Part shown: piece after piece, positions 31,241 to 51,756 of the stretch
Layout: every line of letters begins with the position of its first letter
How positions within the stretch are numbered: the first letter of the stretch is position 1
Assembly: GCF_018390605.1 (NCBI RefSeq)
Contig: NZ_JAHBGD010000017.1
Location: 346,352 to 410,351 of the forward strand
From: Ancylobacter defluvii
Lineage (GTDB): Bacteria > Pseudomonadota > Alphaproteobacteria > Rhizobiales > Xanthobacteraceae
DNA length: 64,000 nucleotides
Direction: 5' to 3'
Notes under the pieces: generated by a model
What the model was told of the DNA's origin: nothing
Database searches by the model: none
What the model saw: the letters and a program-made list of their open reading frames with translations, nothing else
Program-made: the position numbers and the translations under genes

Positions 31241-31601
31241 CCCGCCGCTCCCTGCGATGAGGTCGATCTTCGATTCTCCCTCTCCCCATGGCGTGTATTG
31301 GAAAGATGTTTCCGATCGGCATGATCAGAGGGCATCTCCTTTTTCTCCCTCTCCCCGTGGGGGAGAGGGGTGGGGTGAGGGGTCTTCCTGCCTTCCCCAT
31401 GTCGTCCCCCCTCACCGACCCGCTGCGCGGGCCCCCTCTCCCCGACGGGGAGAGGGGAGGTAAAGCGTGCGGTGGAGACGTTTCTCTTCAATGGCACGCC
31501 GGATGACCGGGCTCTTTCCGATCGCTCACAAAGCACCGTCATCCTGAGGGGAGAGCCTTGAAGGACGCTTCCCCGGGCACACCCACCCCGCCCACGCCCC
31601 C
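31241..31601. other. Non-coding gap between cobM and cobB, mostly repeat element
   Basis: No gene is seen in these 360 bases. The centre (about 31345-31460) is a palindromic repeat unit. The remaining flanks hold a partial copy near 31270 (CCCTCTCCCCATGG) and no recognisable promoter. Confidence 0.6.
31345..31460. repeat. Palindromic dispersed repeat, copy A
   Basis: Two GC-rich hairpins, CTCCCTCTCCCC-GTGG-GGGAGAGGG at the left and CCCTCTCCCC-GAC-GGGGAGAGGG at the right, are joined by about 70 bases that include GGTGGGGTGAGGGG and CCCCTCACCGACCC, which also pair. The copy at 47466-47592 has the same layout and most of the same bases. It could fold into a long structured RNA. Confidence 0.8.
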
Positions 31602-36994: not shown

Positions 36995-38210
36995 GTGAAC
37001 TCTCCAGAAACCCGCGCACGGCACTCGCCAGCTCGTCGAAGCGGACGATCCGCGCCGGCATGTCGCGCGCGGTGCCTTCGATCACGATCCCTGCCCCTTC
37101 GTCCAGCCCCACGATGGTGAGACCGGCCCGGCCGGGATGCGCGCAGCCCTTCACGCAGCCCGAAACATGCACCGAGCGGCCTTTCGCCAGCCCGGCGAGG
37201 TCGCGCGCCAGCTCCCGCGCCAATCCCCGCGTGGCGAATCGCGCCGCGCCGCAGGCCGGGGCGCCGGGGCAGGCCTCCACCCGCCGCAACGGATCGCCGG
37301 CATCGACGATCAGCCCCGCCGCCGTCGCCCAATCCGCCAATCCGTCAGCCCCGCCATCGTCGAGTGCGCCGATCAGCAAAGCCCGTCCGCCCGCCGGCTC
37401 GATGAAGGTCGCCCCCCGTTGCGCCGCCGTATCGGCCAGCGCCTCGAGCGTCTCAGCCTCGATCTGGCCGAAGGGCAGGCCGACGCCAAGCGCCCACCCG
37501 CTGGCAAGCATATGCCGCCCTACCGGCTCGCCCGGCACGGCCTCGCGCGGATCCGCCGGCTGCAATCCCGCCCCCAGCGCACCTTCCCCCTCGGCGGCAA
37601 CGAGGTCGCGCATCCTCGCACGGGGTCCGAAGGCGGCCAGCCTTTCCAGCAGCGCCAGCACCGCCGGCACCGGCGCCGGGGTTCGGCCGAGCGTCATCCC
37701 CGCCGCCTCGATGCGGAATTCCGCTCCGGCCGGCGATACCGCGATGTCGAGATCGCGTCCCGCCAGCCCCAGCCCGCCGCCGCCATCGATGCCGATGCTG
37801 ACCTTCGGCGCCAGCCGCGCCGCCAGCCCTGCGGCGGCAGCGGCCTCCGCCAGCGCCGCCGCCAGCAGGCGCGGGTCGAAAACCTCGGCGGGATCGCGTC
37901 CCGCCAGCGCGCTCGTCTCGATCCCCAGCCCCTCGCGTACCGCAATCCGCAGCGCCCCGACACCCTCGGCAAGGCGCCCCGCTCCCGCCGGATCGAGCCC
38001 GCGCACCTGCAATTTTCCCCGCGCCGTCACCTCGAGGATGCCGTTGCCGCAATCCCGCGCCAGCGCCGCCAGCCCGGCGGCTTGCGCCGGCGTCAGCGCC
38101 TCGGCCGGCGCGAGGCGCGCCAGCAGCCCGTCGCCGGTCGCCATCGGCGCCGGCAGCGTCGGGCAGGCGCCTCGGGGCAGAGCCTCGGGAGAGGTTGCTG
38201 CGACGCTCAT
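36987..38210 (-). CDS. cobG: Precorrin-3B synthase
   Basis: This 407-residue protein is related to sulfite and nitrite reductases and binds a 4Fe-4S cluster; it uses oxygen to hydroxylate precorrin-3A. That makes the pathway the aerobic type. Cluster cysteines appear in 'RVEACPGAPACGAARFATRG' and 'HVSGCVKGCAHPGRAG'. The N-terminal half-domain has 'NGILEVTARGKLQVRGL', as in nitrite/sulfite reductase half-domains. The ATG at 38210 overlaps the cobN stop. A longer upstream frame lies inside cobN and is not used. Confidence 0.92.
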   Translation of the reverse strand: MSVAATSPEALPRGACPTLPAPMATGDGLLARLAPAEALTPAQAAGLAALARDCGNGILEVTARGKLQVRGLDPAGAGRLAEGVGALRIAVREGLGIETSALAGRDPAEVFDPRLLAAALAEAAAAAGLAARLAPKVSIGIDGGGGLGLAGRDLDIAVSPAGAEFRIEAAGMTLGRTPAPVPAVLALLERLAAFGPRARMRDLVAAEGEGALGAGLQPADPREAVPGEPVGRHMLASGWALGVGLPFGQIEAETLEALADTAAQRGATFIEPAGGRALLIGALDDGGADGLADWATAAGLIVDAGDPLRRVEACPGAPACGAARFATRGLARELARDLAGLAKGRSVHVSGCVKGCAHPGRAGLTIVGLDEGAGIVIEGTARDMPARIVRFDELASAVRGFLESSRG

Positions 38211-41200
38211 TCCGCCGCCTCCCCGCCACGTCCCTGCCCGCGCAGCGTGTCCAGCGCCGCCGCCACGTCGTTGCGCTTGGGATGCCAAAGCCCGCGGGCC
38301 CGCGCGCCCTCCAGCCGCTCCGCCACGACGCGCGCGCCCTCCGGCGACTGATGGCCAAGGAACTCGCGCACCCTCTCATCCGCCACATAGGCGGCATGGA
38401 TCAGGTCGATCAGGTGCGAGGGCACCGCCTGCGTCACCTCGGCGAAGCCGATCAGCCGGTCGACGGTCTCGACGATCTCCGCCGCGCCGCGCGGACCGTG
38501 GCGCAGCAGGCCGTCCACATAGCCGGGCGCCACCCGCCGCCGCACGATCCGCGCCAGCGCCTGTTCGAGCGGCCGCGCCCTCGGGCGTGCCGGGTCGCTG
38601 GTGTCGAGCACCACGAGGTCGGGCGCCCGCCCGAGTGAGGCCGCCGCCGCCGCGAAGCCGCCGAGAAAGGCAAGGTCGGCATCGCCCTCCAGCACATCGC
38701 GCCCCGGATCGTCCTGCCCGTGCACCAGAAGGTCGGCCGCCGCCACCCGCGCCGCGAAAGCCGTGCCGGCCGGCCGCGCCGCGCCCTCGGCGCCGCCATA
38801 GGCATGCGAGGCGCTGGCGAGATAGGCCGCGCCCACCGTCTGCGCTTCCCGTTCGCCCGCAAGCGTGTCGAGCCCGGCGCCATAGGCCCCCGGCGCGGTG
38901 CCGAAGATGCGCGGCGCGCCCTCGCCCGCCGCCGCCAGCGGGTTCTCCTCCGCCGGCTCGTCGCGCCGCGCCACCGCCTTCAGCGCGGCGTCGAGCAGCG
39001 CGATCTGCGCCGGAAACAGGTCGCGGAACAGGCCGGAGATGCGGAACGTCACGTCCACGCGCGGCCGCCCCATCGCGGCCGGCGGCAGCACCTCGATGCC
39101 GGTCACCCGCCCGGTCGCCGGGTCCCACACCGGCCGCGCCCCGATCAGCGCCAGCCCCTGTGCGATCTCCTCGCCGCCGGTGCGCAGCGTCGCGCTGCCC
39201 CACAGATCGAGCACCAGCGCCCGCGGCCAGTCGCCATGCGCCTGCATGTAGCCGCGCACGATTTCCTCGGCGGCCAGCCGGCCGAGGTCCATGGCGGTCG
39301 GCGTCGGCAGGTCGCGCGGGTCGGCGGTGGAAAGGTTGCGCCCGGTCGGCATCACGTCGGAGCGCCCGCGCGCCGGCGCCCCCGCCGGCCCGGCCTTCAC
39401 CCGCCGCCCGGCGAGCGCCGCCAGCAGCCCGTCGCGCTCGGCGTCGCCACAGGCGCCGCGCCCATAGACATGGAAGCCGTCCTTGAGCCGCAGTTCCTTG
39501 AGGTCGCACAGCCAGGCATCGATGCGCCGCAGCGCCTCGCCGTCGTCGGCGCCGTCGAGCCGTGCCAGATCCAGACGTGCTTCCTGGGCGAGCCCGGTGC
39601 GCCCGGCCTCCTCGACGATCAGCCGCGCCAGCCGCTCGCGGCGCCGGCGGTCCAGCCCTTCCGCCTGCGCATATTCGTCGAGCAGGCGTTCGAGCTCGCG
39701 GGCATCGCCGTCAAGCTCCGCCTCCTTCATCGGCGGCGGCAGATGGCCGAGCGTCACCGCCGCGATGCGCCGCTTGGCCTGCGCCGCCTCGCCGGGATTG
39801 GAGACGATGAACGGATAGACCACCGGCAGCGCCCCGACCACGAGGCTCGGGAAGCAGGAAGCCGTCAGCGCCACCTGCTTGCCCGGCAGCCATTCCAGCG
39901 TGCCATGCGCGCCCATATGCACCAGCGCATCGACCTCGCGCTGCAACCATAAGCCGAACGCAAGCAGCGCGTGGCGCGGCGGCAGGGCCGGGTCGTGATA
40001 CTGCGCCCGCCGCTCTGCCGTCGTGCCGCGATCCGGCGCCAGCGCGACGACGACATTGCCGCAGCGGATCGCCCGGAAGCGGAAGGCGCCATCGACGCAG
40101 GCCGGATCATCCTCCGCCGCCCCCCACGCCGCCTCGACGGCGGCGATGGCGTCGGCGGGAAGGGAAGCCGTCAGGCGGCGATAGTCCTCCAGGCCCAGCA
40201 AGGCCTCATCCGCCGATGTGCGTGTACTGAAGCCCTCTCCCCGAGGGGGAGAGGGTGGGGTGAGGGGGGAAGGCGATCGCGAGGCCGTCAGGCCCCTCTC
40301 TGCATCCCGTCTCTCGACGGCGCCGGGTGCAGCCGCCGGCACCTCACCGAGCCCCTCGGCTCGAGCGGTATCGCCCAACGCCGTCACCAGCGCCCGCTCG
40401 TCCTCCGGCACCTCCGCGATGCGATAGCCCGCCGCCTGCATGTCGGCGAGCGCGACCCGCACGCTTGCCGGCACGTCGAGCCCAACCGCCCAGCCGGTGC
40501 GCCCGGCGGCGCCGGCATAGTCGGGCAGGATCATCGCTATCAGCCGCTCGGCCGGCGGCGTGAGGCGCAGCCGCACCAGTGCCGCCACCCGGTCCGCCAC
40601 TGCCGCCACCAGTTCCGGCTCGGGCCGGTTGACGAGGTGCGTGGCTCCCGCCTCCTCGGTCACATCCTTGAACGACACCGCCCCGGCCAGCACCCGCCCG
40701 TCGAACTCCGGCAGCACCACATGCATGGCGAGGTCGGCGGCCGCCAATCCGCGCGCGCCCTCCCTCCATGCCGCCCGCCTCGTGGTCGCCACCACCGCCT
40801 GCAGCACCGGCGCATCGGTGAGGTCGATGGGGCCGTCCTCGCCCGGCTCGGCGGCGGCGAAGGCGGTCAGCGTCACGATCGCCGCCGGCCGCAAACCCGG
40901 CAGAGTGCGGCGCAGGAAGTCCGCCGAGTGCGGCTCCTTCAGGCTGGCGACGAACAGCGGCAGCGGCCGCATCCCCCGCTCGGCCAGCGCCACGCACAGC
41001 GCATCGACCGGCGCCGTGTCGCCGGCCATGAGCAGCGAGCGGTAGAAAATGACGGGAACGACCGGCGCCGCCCCGCCCGCCGGAGCGTCCCCAGCAGACA
41101 GTGGGGCTCCCGCCTCGGGCGACGGATCTCCCCCGCGAGGAGAGGGAACAAGCCGCTCTGTGGCAAAAGCCCCCTCTCCACCGGGGAGAGGATTGGGTGA

Positions 41201-41797
41201 GGGAGAGCACGGTCGCGAGTCCATCCCTCCGGCCGCCGCGCCACACTCATAAAACCCCGCCAGCGGCAGCGGCACGGGCGCCGGCACCTCGACCACGCGG
41301 CCGACATGCCGCGCCAGCGCCGCCAAAAGCGCCCGCATATTGTCCGGCCCGCCGGCACGGAAATAGGCGAGCAGCGCCGCCAGTTCGTCCGCCGCCAGCG
41401 TCGAGGCCTCGGCCAGGCGCGGGTCGTCGCGGTCCTCGCCCGGCAGCACGGCGAGCACGAAGCCCCGCGCCCGCGCCGCCGCCTGCAACCGCTCGACGCC
41501 GTAGCGCCACCAGTCGAGCCCGCCGAGCAGCCGCACCACCACCATCTTCGCCTGCGGCGCCAGCCGGTCGACCCACAGATCGACCGACATCGGGTGCTTG
41601 AGATCGCGCAGATTGGTCAGCGCCAGGCTCGGCCGGCCCAAAGCGCCGGCGCCCTCTCCCCCGCCATGGGCCCGTGCCAGCGCCGCGAGGTCGCTGTCGG
41701 CGAAGGAGGCCACCACCAGCTCCGCCGGCGCCTGAGCAAGGTCGACCGGTTCGGCGAGATCGTCGAGCGAGGTCGATGTGGTGGCGAGTATGTGCAT
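38207..41797 (-). CDS. cobN: Cobaltochelatase subunit CobN
   Basis: This 1196-residue large subunit works with CobS and CobT (not in this window) to insert cobalt into hydrogenobyrinate a,c-diamide. It opens MHILATTSTSLDDLAEPVDL. CobN/magnesium-chelatase-H motifs include 'VDALVHMGAHGTLEWLPGKQ', 'DLWGSATLRTGGEEIAQGLA', 'VTFRISGLFRDLFPAQIALL' and 'YVDGLLRHGPRGAAEIVETV'. Two low-complexity insertions (about residues 195-240 and 500-525) match the dispersed palindromic repeats read in frame. The coding frame remains open. The gene starts 21 bases after the cobW stop. Confidence 0.95.
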   Translation of the reverse strand: MHILATTSTSLDDLAEPVDLAQAPAELVVASFADSDLAALARAHGGGEGAGALGRPSLALTNLRDLKHPMSVDLWVDRLAPQAKMVVVRLLGGLDWWRYGVERLQAAARARGFVLAVLPGEDRDDPRLAEASTLAADELAALLAYFRAGGPDNMRALLAALARHVGRVVEVPAPVPLPLAGFYECGAAAGGMDSRPCSPSPNPLPGGEGAFATERLVPSPRGGDPSPEAGAPLSAGDAPAGGAAPVVPVIFYRSLLMAGDTAPVDALCVALAERGMRPLPLFVASLKEPHSADFLRRTLPGLRPAAIVTLTAFAAAEPGEDGPIDLTDAPVLQAVVATTRRAAWREGARGLAAADLAMHVVLPEFDGRVLAGAVSFKDVTEEAGATHLVNRPEPELVAAVADRVAALVRLRLTPPAERLIAMILPDYAGAAGRTGWAVGLDVPASVRVALADMQAAGYRIAEVPEDERALVTALGDTARAEGLGEVPAAAPGAVERRDAERGLTASRSPSPLTPPSPPRGEGFSTRTSADEALLGLEDYRRLTASLPADAIAAVEAAWGAAEDDPACVDGAFRFRAIRCGNVVVALAPDRGTTAERRAQYHDPALPPRHALLAFGLWLQREVDALVHMGAHGTLEWLPGKQVALTASCFPSLVVGALPVVYPFIVSNPGEAAQAKRRIAAVTLGHLPPPMKEAELDGDARELERLLDEYAQAEGLDRRRRERLARLIVEEAGRTGLAQEARLDLARLDGADDGEALRRIDAWLCDLKELRLKDGFHVYGRGACGDAERDGLLAALAGRRVKAGPAGAPARGRSDVMPTGRNLSTADPRDLPTPTAMDLGRLAAEEIVRGYMQAHGDWPRALVLDLWGSATLRTGGEEIAQGLALIGARPVWDPATGRVTGIEVLPPAAMGRPRVDVTFRISGLFRDLFPAQIALLDAALKAVARRDEPAEENPLAAAGEGAPRIFGTAPGAYGAGLDTLAGEREAQTVGAAYLASASHAYGGAEGAARPAGTAFAARVAAADLLVHGQDDPGRDVLEGDADLAFLGGFAAAAASLGRAPDLVVLDTSDPARPRARPLEQALARIVRRRVAPGYVDGLLRHGPRGAAEIVETVDRLIGFAEVTQAVPSHLIDLIHAAYVADERVREFLGHQSPEGARVVAERLEGARARGLWHPKRNDVAAALDTLRGQGRGGEAAE
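40225..40305. repeat. Palindromic repeat inside cobN, copy B
   Basis: The hairpin CCCTCTCCCC-GAG-GGGGAGAGGG, followed by TGGGGTGAGGGG, matches the intergenic copies. In the cobN frame it reads PSPLTPPSPPRGEG, which is unlike CobN sequence on either side. It adds about 25 residues. Confidence 0.8.
41105..41220. repeat. Palindromic repeat inside cobN, copy C
   Basis: The hairpin CCCTCTCCACCGGGGAGAGG, then TTGGGTGAGGGAGAG, with a second partial unit at about 41128-41150. The cobN frame reads SPSPNPLPGGEGAF and VPSPRGGDPSPEAG here, about 45 residues of low complexity between normal CobN segments. Confidence 0.75.
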
Positions 41798-42877: not shown

Positions 42878-43011
42878 GACGGCGTCTCCGGCGGCGTTGC
42901 AAGGTTTCGGGGCACGCCGGCCGCGGGAATCTCCCCGCGCAAGCCGCCGGAATCGGACATCCGGCGACCTCACCCGCCTGCCGGGCACCCCGCCGGCATG
43001 CACGACCGAAC

Positions 43012-43193
43012 CGATGGCAGGTCTCCTGGCTCGCGGGTCGTGGCCCTTGCCGCCTTCCCGGATCGCTCCAGTGGCCTTTGGCTCGGGCTCGCCGCTTACA
43101 GTTGCGGGGGCAGCCGCGGAATTGCCGTCCCGTTGCCGGGCCGGCGCACCGCATTCCCTCTTCGTCCCTCCCGGTGAGGGAGGAAACCGTCGG
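43012..43193 (-). promoter_or_regulatory. Cobalamin riboswitch controlling cobW and the left cob arm
   Basis: On the minus strand the element shows the conserved blocks in order: GGGAATGCGGTG near the 5' side, CCGCGGCTGCCCCCGCAACT then GTAAGCGG (the B12 box region), GGCCACTGG, CGGGAAGGCGG, and CGACCCGCGAGCCAGGAGAC at the 3' side. It ends about 135 bases before the cobW start codon. Cobalamin binding should reduce expression of cobW, cobN and the genes behind them. Confidence 0.95.
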
Positions 43194-43277
43194 TCGCGGC
43201 CACTAAAGGAGCGCAAGGGGGGAATGTCAACGCGCGGGGCATTGCGGAGACCTCGACTGCCGGTATAGTTGGTCGCA
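43194..43277. promoter_or_regulatory. Divergent promoter region between the two riboswitches
   Basis: Only about 84 bases separate the two riboswitch aptamers, so both promoters, pointing in opposite directions, must lie here or overlap the aptamer edges. No textbook -35/-10 pair stands out. TATAGTTGG at 43264-43272 is the most AT-rich spot and may be part of the plus-strand promoter. Confidence 0.6.
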
Positions 43278-43466
43278 GTCGGCGGTTCCCGTGATGGGCA
43301 CGGGACGCAAGACGGGAACGCGGTGGGACCGGGCCCTCGGGCAAGGTCGATTCCGCGGCTGCCCCCGCAACTGTAAGCGGCGAGCCTACCTCTACTGGCC
43401 ACTGGCGTTCGCGCCGGGAAGGCGGAGGGACAGGCGACGACCCGCGAGCCAGGAGACCGGCCGTCG
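43278..43466 (+). promoter_or_regulatory. Cobalamin riboswitch controlling cbtBA and the right cob arm
   Basis: The plus strand shows GGTTCCC, GGGAACGCGGTGGGA, CCGCGGCTGCCCCCGCAACT then GTAAGCGG, TGGCCACTGG, CGGGAAGGCGGA and CGACCCGCGAGCCAGGAGAC in the canonical order and spacing. It ends 43 bases before the cbtB start codon. Cobalamin should switch off cobalt uptake (cbtBA) and the genes that follow. Confidence 0.96.
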
Positions 43467-43509
43467 ACATCACGCCTGGCCCTCGGGTGGAGGGCAAAAG
43501 GAGACGACC

Positions 43510-47465: not shown

Positions 47466-47592
47466 GGAGACCCCTCTCCCCGTCGGGGAGAGGGGTGGGG
47501 CGAGGGGTCTCCGACGATTCCCGATGTCGTCCCCCCTCACCGACCCGCTTCGCGGGCCACCTCTCCCCAACGGGGAGAGGGAAAGAGTCCCC
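47466..47592. repeat. Palindromic dispersed repeat, copy D
   Basis: It has the same layout as the copy at 31345-31460: CCCCTCTCCCC-GTC-GGGGAGAGGGG, then GTGGGGCGAGGGGTC, then TCGTCCCCCCTCACCGACCC and a second hairpin CCTCTCCCC-AAC-GGGGAGAGG. It fills the space between the convergent cobQ and cobD stops, where it could end transcription in both directions. Confidence 0.85.
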
Positions 47593-48570
47593 TCACACCG
47601 CCCAGAACGCCGCCGCTCCCACGCCCACCAGCGCGATCAGCAGCGCATCGGCGATCCGGTAGAGCCGCAGCGCCCGCCTTATATCCACCGCCGCACAGTC
47701 CCGCCGGCCGCCGGTGCCCATGAAGCCGTCCGTCACCAACTGGCCGTGATAGACGCGCGGCCCGGCGAGCGCGAGGCCGAGCGCCCCGGCCAGCGCCGCC
47801 TCCGGCCAGCCGGCATTCGGCGATTTGTGGAAGCGCGCGTCGCGCCGCACCGCCGCCCAGGCTCCCCGCGCCGAGGCGCCCGGCATCAGCAGCGCCGCGA
47901 CGATCAGCAGCCCGCCGGCCAGCCGCGAGGCCGGCAGGTTGATCAGGTCGTCGAAGCGCGCCGCCGCCCGGCCGAAATCGATGAAGCGCTCGGTGCGATG
48001 GCCGATCATGCTGTCGGCGGTGTTCGCCGCCTTGTACATGCAGATGCCCGGCAGCCCGCCGATCGCCATCCACAGCGCCGGCGCCACGATGCCGTCGGAG
48101 AAGTTCTCCGCCAGGCTCTCGATCGCCGCCCGCGACACCCCGGCCTCGTCGAGCGCCTCCGGATCGCGCCCGACGATCAGCGACACCGCCGCCCGCCCCT
48201 CGGCGAGGCCGGCGTCGAGCCCGTCGGCCACCTCAGCCACATGGTCGTGCAGGCTGCGCTGCGCCAGCAGGGTCGAGCCGAGCAGGGCGACGATGACGAA
48301 GCCCAAGGGCAGCAGCAGCAATGCCTTCTGCGCCGCCAGCCCGGCGCCGATAGAGATCAGCAGCACCACCACCAGCGAGACGAGGCCGGCGAAGCGGCGA
48401 TCGCCCGGCGGGTCGCCATCGAGGTTCAGGCTGCGGTCGAGAAAGCCGATCAGCCATCCCGCCCACATCACCGGATGGCCGAGGCGCGGCAGCAAGAAGG
48501 CGGGATAGCCGAAAGCGGCCTCGAACAGCAGCGCGACAAGGGTTAAACCGAGGGTGAGCTCCGGCGCCAT
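47593..48570 (-). CDS. cobD: Adenosylcobinamide-phosphate synthase (CobD/CbiB)
   Basis: This 325-residue inner-membrane enzyme joins the aminopropanol linker to adenosylcobyric acid. The ATG at 48570 begins [20 protein letters not shown], with the family's '[20 protein letters not shown]' just after. Other motifs are '[20 protein letters not shown]', '[20 protein letters not shown]' and '[15 protein letters not shown]'. About four to five membrane segments are seen. It is convergent with cobQ and divergent from recQ (106 bases apart). Confidence 0.95.
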
Positions 48571-48676
48571 CCGCACTGATTCTCTCAAAACCGGCAGGAG
48601 GCCGCACCATGTCCATCGCCGCACCGGCCGTCCAGAGTTTGTCTGCCGTCCCCTGCCTCGCCGGCGTCAGTCACGC

Positions 48677-51206: not shown

Positions 51207-51756
51207 GGCGAGCGGCGCGTTATACGCCCGCTCATCCGGCGGCCGCCTGATCATGACTCCCCTCTCACGATCGGGTGCCGCTCTCTCCGTCGAAAGGGAG
51301 AGACAGGACCGACGCTGAAGAGGCAATGCGCACTTGCCGATGCGAGATCCCTCTCGGGAGCTCTCCCGCCCGATTGGTAGCCCCTCTCTCCGTCGGGCAT
51401 CCCCTCTCCCCGTCGGGGAGAGGGATGGGGAGAGGGGTCTTCTTCAGCTCCGCAATCGCGTCGCCCCACACCGACCCGCCGAGCCTGTCCTTGGGCTCGC
51501 CAGAGGCGAGACCCGAAGGCGGGCCACCTCTTCATCGCAACCGGACGTATCCGGTTTCGACTTTGCCGGAAGCGAACTGGGCAACAGCCGAGCGCGCTGG
51601 GGAGAGGAACAGAAAGTCCCGGCCCGGCGATGCCCGACCCGGCATAGGAGCGGGTCGGACCATCGGTCTGAAGCTGCAACGATGCGGCGCTGCCAGTCGG
51701 GTGCTCGTTCTCGATTCCATCGCTTCTTCACGCCCCTGACCAATGCGGAGCCCGAC
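51207..51756. repeat. Non-coding region with degenerate palindromic repeats, copy E
   Basis: About 550 bases separate the SRPBCC gene and the beta-propeller gene. Repeat units related to the other copies occupy about 51257-51300 (CCCCTCTCACGATCGGGTGC...) and 51385-51445 (CCCCTCTCCCCGTCGGGGAGAGG followed by GATGGGGAGAGGGGTC). A connecting segment CCCCACACCGACCCGCCGAG continues to about 51535. Open frames across it are repeat translations and are not called as genes. The remaining part to 51756 should hold the promoter of the propeller gene; none is obvious. Confidence 0.7.

Follow-up and report, generated by a model that had tools for sequence, protein, structure and literature searches.

Several palindromic repeat families occupy the same two predicted linkers of CobN in Ancylobacter

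The gene cobN, coding for the cobaltochelatase subunit CobN, lies in the 64,000-nt stretch of the Ancylobacter defluvii genome analysed in this work and hereafter called the window (assembly GCF_018390605.1, contig NZ_JAHBGD010000017.1, positions 346,352 to 410,351), and its reading frame runs through hairpins of a palindromic repeat, here named type A, which is also present apparently between genes. The question raised by this locus is how an enzyme came to contain such repeats and why related species carry other ones at the same positions. The answer preferred here, to which we assign a probability of about 80%, is neutral recurrent invasion of two permissive CobN linkers by mobile palindromic repeats, together with their nesting and loss. 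The gene and the inserts within it are as follows:

38207..41797, minus strand: cobN, cobaltochelatase subunit CobN, host of the inserts; open frame of 1196 aa recognised by NCBIfam models
41075..41239, minus strand: loop 1, residues 187-241, predicted disordered, delimited by predicted confidence below 50 and by the alignment of relatives; holds one decayed type A two-hairpin element
41171..41206, minus strand: first type A hairpin of loop 1, residues 198-209, translated in the cobN frame as SPSPNPLPGGEG
41114..41149, minus strand: second type A hairpin of loop 1, decayed, residues 217-228, translated in the cobN frame as VPSPRGGDPSPE
40211..40369, minus strand: loop 2, residues 477-529, predicted disordered (confidence below 50 at 477-516 and 518-529); holds a type A element
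40232..40273, minus strand: intact type A hairpin of loop 2 (core 40233-40255), residues 509-522, translated in the cobN frame as PSPLTPPSPPRGEG

The sequence-only reading had taken these peptides for hairpin repeats translated within a gene that stays open, which was borne out, as all three lie in the frame 38207-41797 on the minus strand and this frame is uninterrupted. The loop 1 peptides each correspond to one half of a single doublet, so the three peptides represent two insertions. The loop 2 copy has a perfect 10-bp stem, the stretch 40222-40268 folding with a z-score of -3.7 relative to shuffled sequences, and its intact hairpin has a decayed partner upstream within the gene. The loop 1 copy is decayed (z -1.2, with 27 of 200 shuffles folding equally well), and a control stretch of cobN, 40140-40232, gave a z-score of 0.1.

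The protein scores above the cut-offs of two NCBIfam equivalog models, namely PRK12321.1 (1491.6 bits, cut-off 1235) and TIGR02257 (1161 bits, cut-off 822.05), and under those of four other CobN models (PRK05989.2-1 to -4) and three ChlH/BchH models. The ratio of nonsynonymous to synonymous substitution rates (dN/dS) of the CobN core is 0.17-0.24 in five pairs, and the aligned loop codons evolve faster (0.37-0.93, with the loop alignment being unsure). A pseudogene or broken gene was rejected on the grounds of the open frame, the two cut-offs passed and a core dN/dS of 0.22-0.24 against three relatives.

The structure was predicted with AlphaFold2 from an alignment of 63 CobN proteins (that of the window and 62 of the 72 listed), giving a mean predicted local distance difference test score (pLDDT) of 82.7 and a predicted template modelling score of 0.84. 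The model has only two long stretches with pLDDT <50, residues 187-241 and 477-516/518-529, the short ones being 1-3, 362-364, 805-808, 817-825 and 1190-1196. Ten-residue mean values on the flanks are 90 (171-180), 65 (181-190) and 86 (241-250) for loop 1, and 96 (461-470), 68 (471-480) and 93 (531-540) for loop 2, and both loops are predicted to be disordered linkers between folded blocks. The closest solved structure by fold is that of Mycobacterium tuberculosis CobN (7c6o), and the sequence alignment with the CobN structure 9uk9 flanks each loop and omits the loops themselves, passing from query residue 193 to 241 where the chain passes from 188 to 196, and from 474 to 534 where it passes from 435 to 453. 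Mapped on the model, the inserts fall in regions with pLDDT <50 having confident structure on both sides, which, together with the cut-offs passed and a core dN/dS of about 0.2, agrees with the earlier suggestion that the enzyme tolerates them in the manner of the palindromic elements of Rickettsia. They fit tolerated loop insertions in a working enzyme, as far as the model and the sequence comparison can tell, and their peptides are probably neutral for it.

The repeat is dispersed both in the window and in the whole genome. With up to 3 mismatches, the pattern CCCTCTCCCCNNGGGGGAGAGGG has 12 matches in the window, representing six places on both strands (31347, 31434, 40233, 47472, 47559 and 51402), with 0.01 expected in shuffled sequences. 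The copies outside cobN are:

31347..31456, unstranded: dispersed type A doublet found by pattern, apparently intergenic, hairpins 87 bp apart; fold z -5.5
47472..47581, unstranded: dispersed type A doublet with 89% identity to the copy at 31347, lying close to but not within the cbiB frame 47593-48624
51402..51440, unstranded: dispersed type A hairpin and tail found by pattern, overlapped by a 469-aa frame

The hairpin starts at 47472 and 47559 are 87 bp apart, as are those at 31347 and 31434. The peptides had earlier been traced to repeats at 31345, 47466 and 51257; the first two of these correspond to the clear hairpins at 31347 and 47472, while the site at 51257 is degraded and the clear hairpin is that at 51402. 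Neither the 345-aa frame over the 31347 doublet nor the 1405-aa frame ending at 31324 matched an NCBIfam family. In the 5,280,544-base A. defluvii genome, the pattern CCCTCTCCCCNNNGGGGAGAGGG with up to 2 mismatches was found at 151 places and its reversed form at none. The loop 2 hairpin is matched by at least 41 other places at 88-97% identity over about 26-52 nt, with the best 40 of 614 candidates scored, and the identity of the CobN insert to other genomic places reaches 97% over 36 nt.

CobN was found in all 30 Ancylobacter genomes, that of A. defluvii included. The gene of genome G004 (locus L122, C9:101987-107800), which appears broken, was left out of the loop counts as its break proved to be an assembly gap, a stretch of N within a loop 2 repeat of type B, leaving 29 readable genes; repeats in coding loops can therefore yield assembly gaps that mimic broken genes. 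For the family assignment, each loop was taken together with its DNA and compared with five repeat families, A to E, at an E-value of ≤1e-3, with short cross-matches between C and E (14-31 nt) given to the better match. At least one repeat is present in 22 of the 29 genes, and neither loop is filled in the remaining 7, so the segments are not common to all CobN orthologues. Loop 1 contains type A in 16 genes, C in 5 (in 2 of them together with A), B in 2 and none of the families in 8, and loop 2 contains A in 6, B in 6, D in 3, E in 3 and none in 11. All 99 blastn pieces of the five families detected in these genes, several of which may come from one element, are within the two loops, and the alignment columns filled in under half of the genes comprise 1053 residues, 909 of which are in the loops. 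This refilling of the same loops by other repeat families in relatives had been overlooked by the sequence-only reading. On a CobN core tree built without the loop columns, the minimum number of family-state changes is 12 for loop 1 and 14 for loop 2, with gains, losses and replacements pooled.

By eye, type A copies were found in three different reading frames, with no sign of a favoured one. Stop-poor repeats as a reason for tolerance were likewise unsupported, with 3-4 of the six frames being open per element against a mean of 4.05 for random 100-mers of the window; most frames are open in a GC-rich genome and the repeats are not particularly stop-poor, so no special coding design is needed. 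Elements of types D, E or B were also seen just outside cobN in some relatives, at 5076-5170 of L028, 1380-1474 of L031 and 5001-5107 of L036.

The loops are also filled beyond the genus. An order-level draw gave CobN in 132 of 150 genomes, and the loci read were the best 30 of these 132, two within the genus and 28 outside, one of the latter (L181) being a fragment without loop coverage. Among the 27 genes left, loop 1 is filled in three (L178, L180 and L162) and loop 2 in none, and a similar insert is present in loop 1 of two Mesorhizobium genes (L067 and L070). Matches to the 172-nt element of L070 number 37, 21, 28 and 22 in genomes G178, G179, G098 and G164, respectively (both strands, the CobN copy included), in all four of which CobN contains it, while G133, where it is missing from CobN, has a single weak match. 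Mesorhizobium fills loop 1 with its own dispersed repeat, and over both genera the two loops of this one host protein contain no fewer than six repeat families.

The families found in the loops are dispersed elsewhere in the genus. Type A is present in 29 of the 30 genomes with 0-191 copies per genome, the reversed control giving none in 29 genomes and one in G018. Type E is present in 29 genomes, in some by one or two weak matches and with a query that also picks up similar C ends, type B in 25, where first-look candidates, not scored, number as many as 483 in G021, and type C in 22, A. defluvii not being among them. For type D, 19 of the 22 matches in the fetched loci are outside the CobN loops, although those displayed are mostly half-elements and some of the loci are orthologous. 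The CobN copies are 77-88% (E) and 82-94% (B) identical to dispersed copies over about 80-115 bp among the matches listed. Genomes with A in CobN carry more A copies than those without it (16 vs 13 genomes, one-sided rank test, p 4e-4), and the same is true for B (6 vs 23 genomes, p 2e-4), these tests ignoring kinship and that for B using first-look candidate counts.

Type A repeats also occur inside other A. defluvii proteins. Out of the 151 hairpins, 77 were read, leading to 57 open frames with at least 60 residues on each side, and 10 of these, picked mostly by codon-position GC, were scanned for protein families: the repeat is inside the family match in two, upstream of the matched part in six, and two have no family. 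As only 10 of the 57 frames were scanned, two genes is a lower bound. The first is an ATP-dependent DNA ligase (TIGR04120; L002, C17:777138-780220) with a type A doublet at about residues 164-197, and the second codes for UvrC (L091, C9:186200-189400) and contains a type A doublet and further repeat-like sequence inside the RNase H domain match. The aligned stretch holding this UvrC linker varies from 58 to 190 residues across all 30 genomes, with the type A-like peptide GEGWGEG present in five of them and GEGWDEG in one more (by eye, at the protein level). Judging by its sequence, the UvrC linker looks like the same kind of sink as is suggested below for the CobN loops.

Recurrent neutral invasion would account for these observations as follows. 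The inserts would be copies of non-autonomous mobile palindromic repeats of about 100 bp, each with a pair of inverted hairpins at its ends, and these repeats would be spreading through the genomes of Ancylobacter. Insertion would be wide, and selection would purge most copies landing in genes. The two CobN linkers between folded blocks may accept extra residues, and we propose that this is why in-frame, stop-free copies survive there. The linkers would then become sinks, where new copies of the same or other families arrive, sometimes inside or beside a resident repeat, and older ones decay or get deleted, with the surviving genes keeping an open frame. The peptides would be translated as flexible linkers rich in Pro, Gly, Ser and Glu.

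Several points weigh against this explanation. For family C the copy-number link falls short of significance (p 0.13), and phylogenetic pairing, in which the informative pairs averaged 3.2 for A, 2.0 for B and 1.4 for C, gave no significant result, C tending in the opposite direction. The dispersal of type D is known from the fetched loci alone. The Y1_Tnp profile (PF01797) had no match in the A. defluvii genome and rings in 5 of 14 control genomes, other transposases not being sought, and no convincing target-site duplications were seen by eye. The weakest family assignments are those of A in loop 1 of G005 (E-value 7e-4) and in loop 2 of G022 (5e-4), and 144 of the 1053 sparse-column residues are outside the loops and have no family matches. 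Finally, the loop 2 type A copies of G000, G001, G013, G018, G022 and G029 have a common arrangement and frame (by eye) and may go back to one old insertion, so some of the sharing may be by descent.

The best surviving alternative, which is possible although clearly less probable than recurrent neutral invasion, is that the repeats insert into resident repeats or a favoured DNA site, which would make the loops insertion hot spots and not places of survival alone. It is favoured by the nested arrangements: in loop 1 of G018 and G020 a complete C element directly follows the left hairpin of A, in loop 1 of G010 a 15-nt left end of type A remains just outside B, and in loop 2 of G025 B adjoins a C/E-like element (all by eye). 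REP sequences (repetitive extragenic palindromic sequences) are, moreover, known insertion targets of certain insertion sequences, as described in PMC1525189. Against this, no resident A is visible with D and E in loop 2 or with the Mesorhizobium element in loop 1, and, with repeats also found in the UvrC linker and the DNA ligase, the loops cannot be unique as DNA sites. The same arrangements suggest a turnover, although an undated one, as does loop 1 of G027, where the sequence GCTTCCCCC|GAGGGGCCTTCTGCC resembles a junction of the two outer ends of A left by loss of the middle (by eye).

A more specific version of preferential insertion appears doubtful, namely that the two linkers are self-renewing landing pads, with later families, after a first palindrome has been tolerated, inserting preferentially into or beside the resident repeat via one shared machinery recognising C[C/G]TCA...TGA[C/G]G-like ends. 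If true, a housekeeping gene would be a lasting reservoir of competing selfish DNA.

It is improbable that vertical inheritance predominates, with one old palindromic insertion per loop having diverged to resemble several families. The type A copies shared in loop 2 by the six species named above could indeed be one event, but the families are unlike in sequence, and the E and B elements of CobN are as close to dispersed copies as stated above. Furthermore, the tree neighbours G015, G023 and G026 hold E, E and D, respectively, in loop 2, and the best matches of type A are on opposite strands in different loop 1 copies, the element itself being near-palindromic.

Equally hard to sustain is the view that the hairpins have been retained because they serve the cobN mRNA or the protein, for instance by pausing translation at domain borders or by tuning chelatase assembly. 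Such a function would agree with the predicted position of the inserts between folded blocks and with the perfect stem of the loop 2 hairpin, but the loop 1 hairpin of the window is decayed, seven species have neither loop filled, and the loop codons evolve faster than the core, as far as their uncertain alignment allows. Ancestral CobN sequence or chance resemblance can be dismissed, having been refuted by the existence of insert-free relatives, the identity to other genomic places and the number of pattern matches expected in the window, with no point found in its favour.

The repeats are partly of a known class. CGTC-tagged REPs are defined by a CGTC head, an 8-9 bp stem starting with AT, a loop of 4-5 nt and a CCA tail, as described in PMC3733652. 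Type E fits this definition, with the structure CGTC-ATGGCCGGG-CTTGG-CCCGGCCAT-CCA and 9/9 stem pairs at this end and also at the other. Type C fits it at the right end only, as a CCTC variant with 8/9 pairs in the CobN form and 9/9 in that of G006. Like the CGTC-tagged REPs of Alphaproteobacteria, E and C share the head, the 9-bp stem starting with AT, the 5-nt loop and the CCA tail, and they form dimers. Types B and D have the heads CGTC or CCTC followed by AT, and their loops appear much longer than 5 nt (by eye). Type A, the repeat of the window, is outside the definition, with its 10-bp stem without an AT start, 3-nt loop and lack of the CCA tail. Despite the different stems, similar C[C/G]TCA...TGA[C/G]G-like motifs recur at the ends of the five families (by eye).

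With its two inverted hairpins, length of about 100 bp and high copy number, type A resembles REP doublets forming hairpins (REPINs), which are mobilised by REP-associated tyrosine transposases (RAYT). It differs from them by the absence of a PF01797 match in the one genome searched for it (0/1), that of A. defluvii, and was not assigned to REPINs with RAYT.

In-frame palindromes as such are already known. The Rickettsia palindromic elements (RPE), according to the descriptions in PMC2229807 and PMC10969869, are palindromic repeats of about 100-150 bp that are found between genes and also fused in frame in conserved proteins, and the inserts described here share these features, the likeness being one of description. 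Here, too, a dispersed palindrome is read in frame in a conserved protein, some orthologues of which are without it. Unlike in the case of RPE, five families fill the same two loops of one enzyme across a genus, with another family in a second genus, and the type A copies use three reading frames (by eye). Intragenic CGTC and GTAG REPs have been published for several species, and Di Nocera et al. (2013) describe them in uvrABC and DNA ligase genes, as well as in recB, where two Xanthomonas species carry a unit at roughly the same position (PMC3733652). A word search of the main text of that paper, supplements not included, gave no CobN and no Ancylobacter, and the titles and abstracts listed in literature searches gave nothing relevant linking either to palindromic repeats. 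What is new is the repeated capture of one loop by different families.

In the papers drawn on here (PMC2229807, PMC10969869 and PMC3733652), in-frame mobile palindromes are described for the most part in Rickettsia, and otherwise as intragenic REPs at scattered places. Ancylobacter offers numerous species in which these two loops are filled, have been refilled or stand empty, amounting to an experiment replicated by nature, and the genus has cultured type strains and an enzyme that can be assayed. The comparison provides a natural test of the tolerance of proteins for selfish DNA, bears on whether selfish repeats build protein linkers, and could distinguish hot spots of insertion from those of survival. 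In each lineage, the loops also serve as ready markers of the repeat families that have been active.

As to the neighbourhood of cobN, an Rfam search of 30000-54000 at the gathering threshold revealed nothing beyond two divergent cobalamin riboswitches (RF00174), one at 42999-43206 on the minus strand, facing cobW-cobN, and the other at 43266-43479 on the plus strand. The latter faces a small gene followed by a 244-aa frame, which presumably resemble the cobalt transporter pair CbtB/CbtA.

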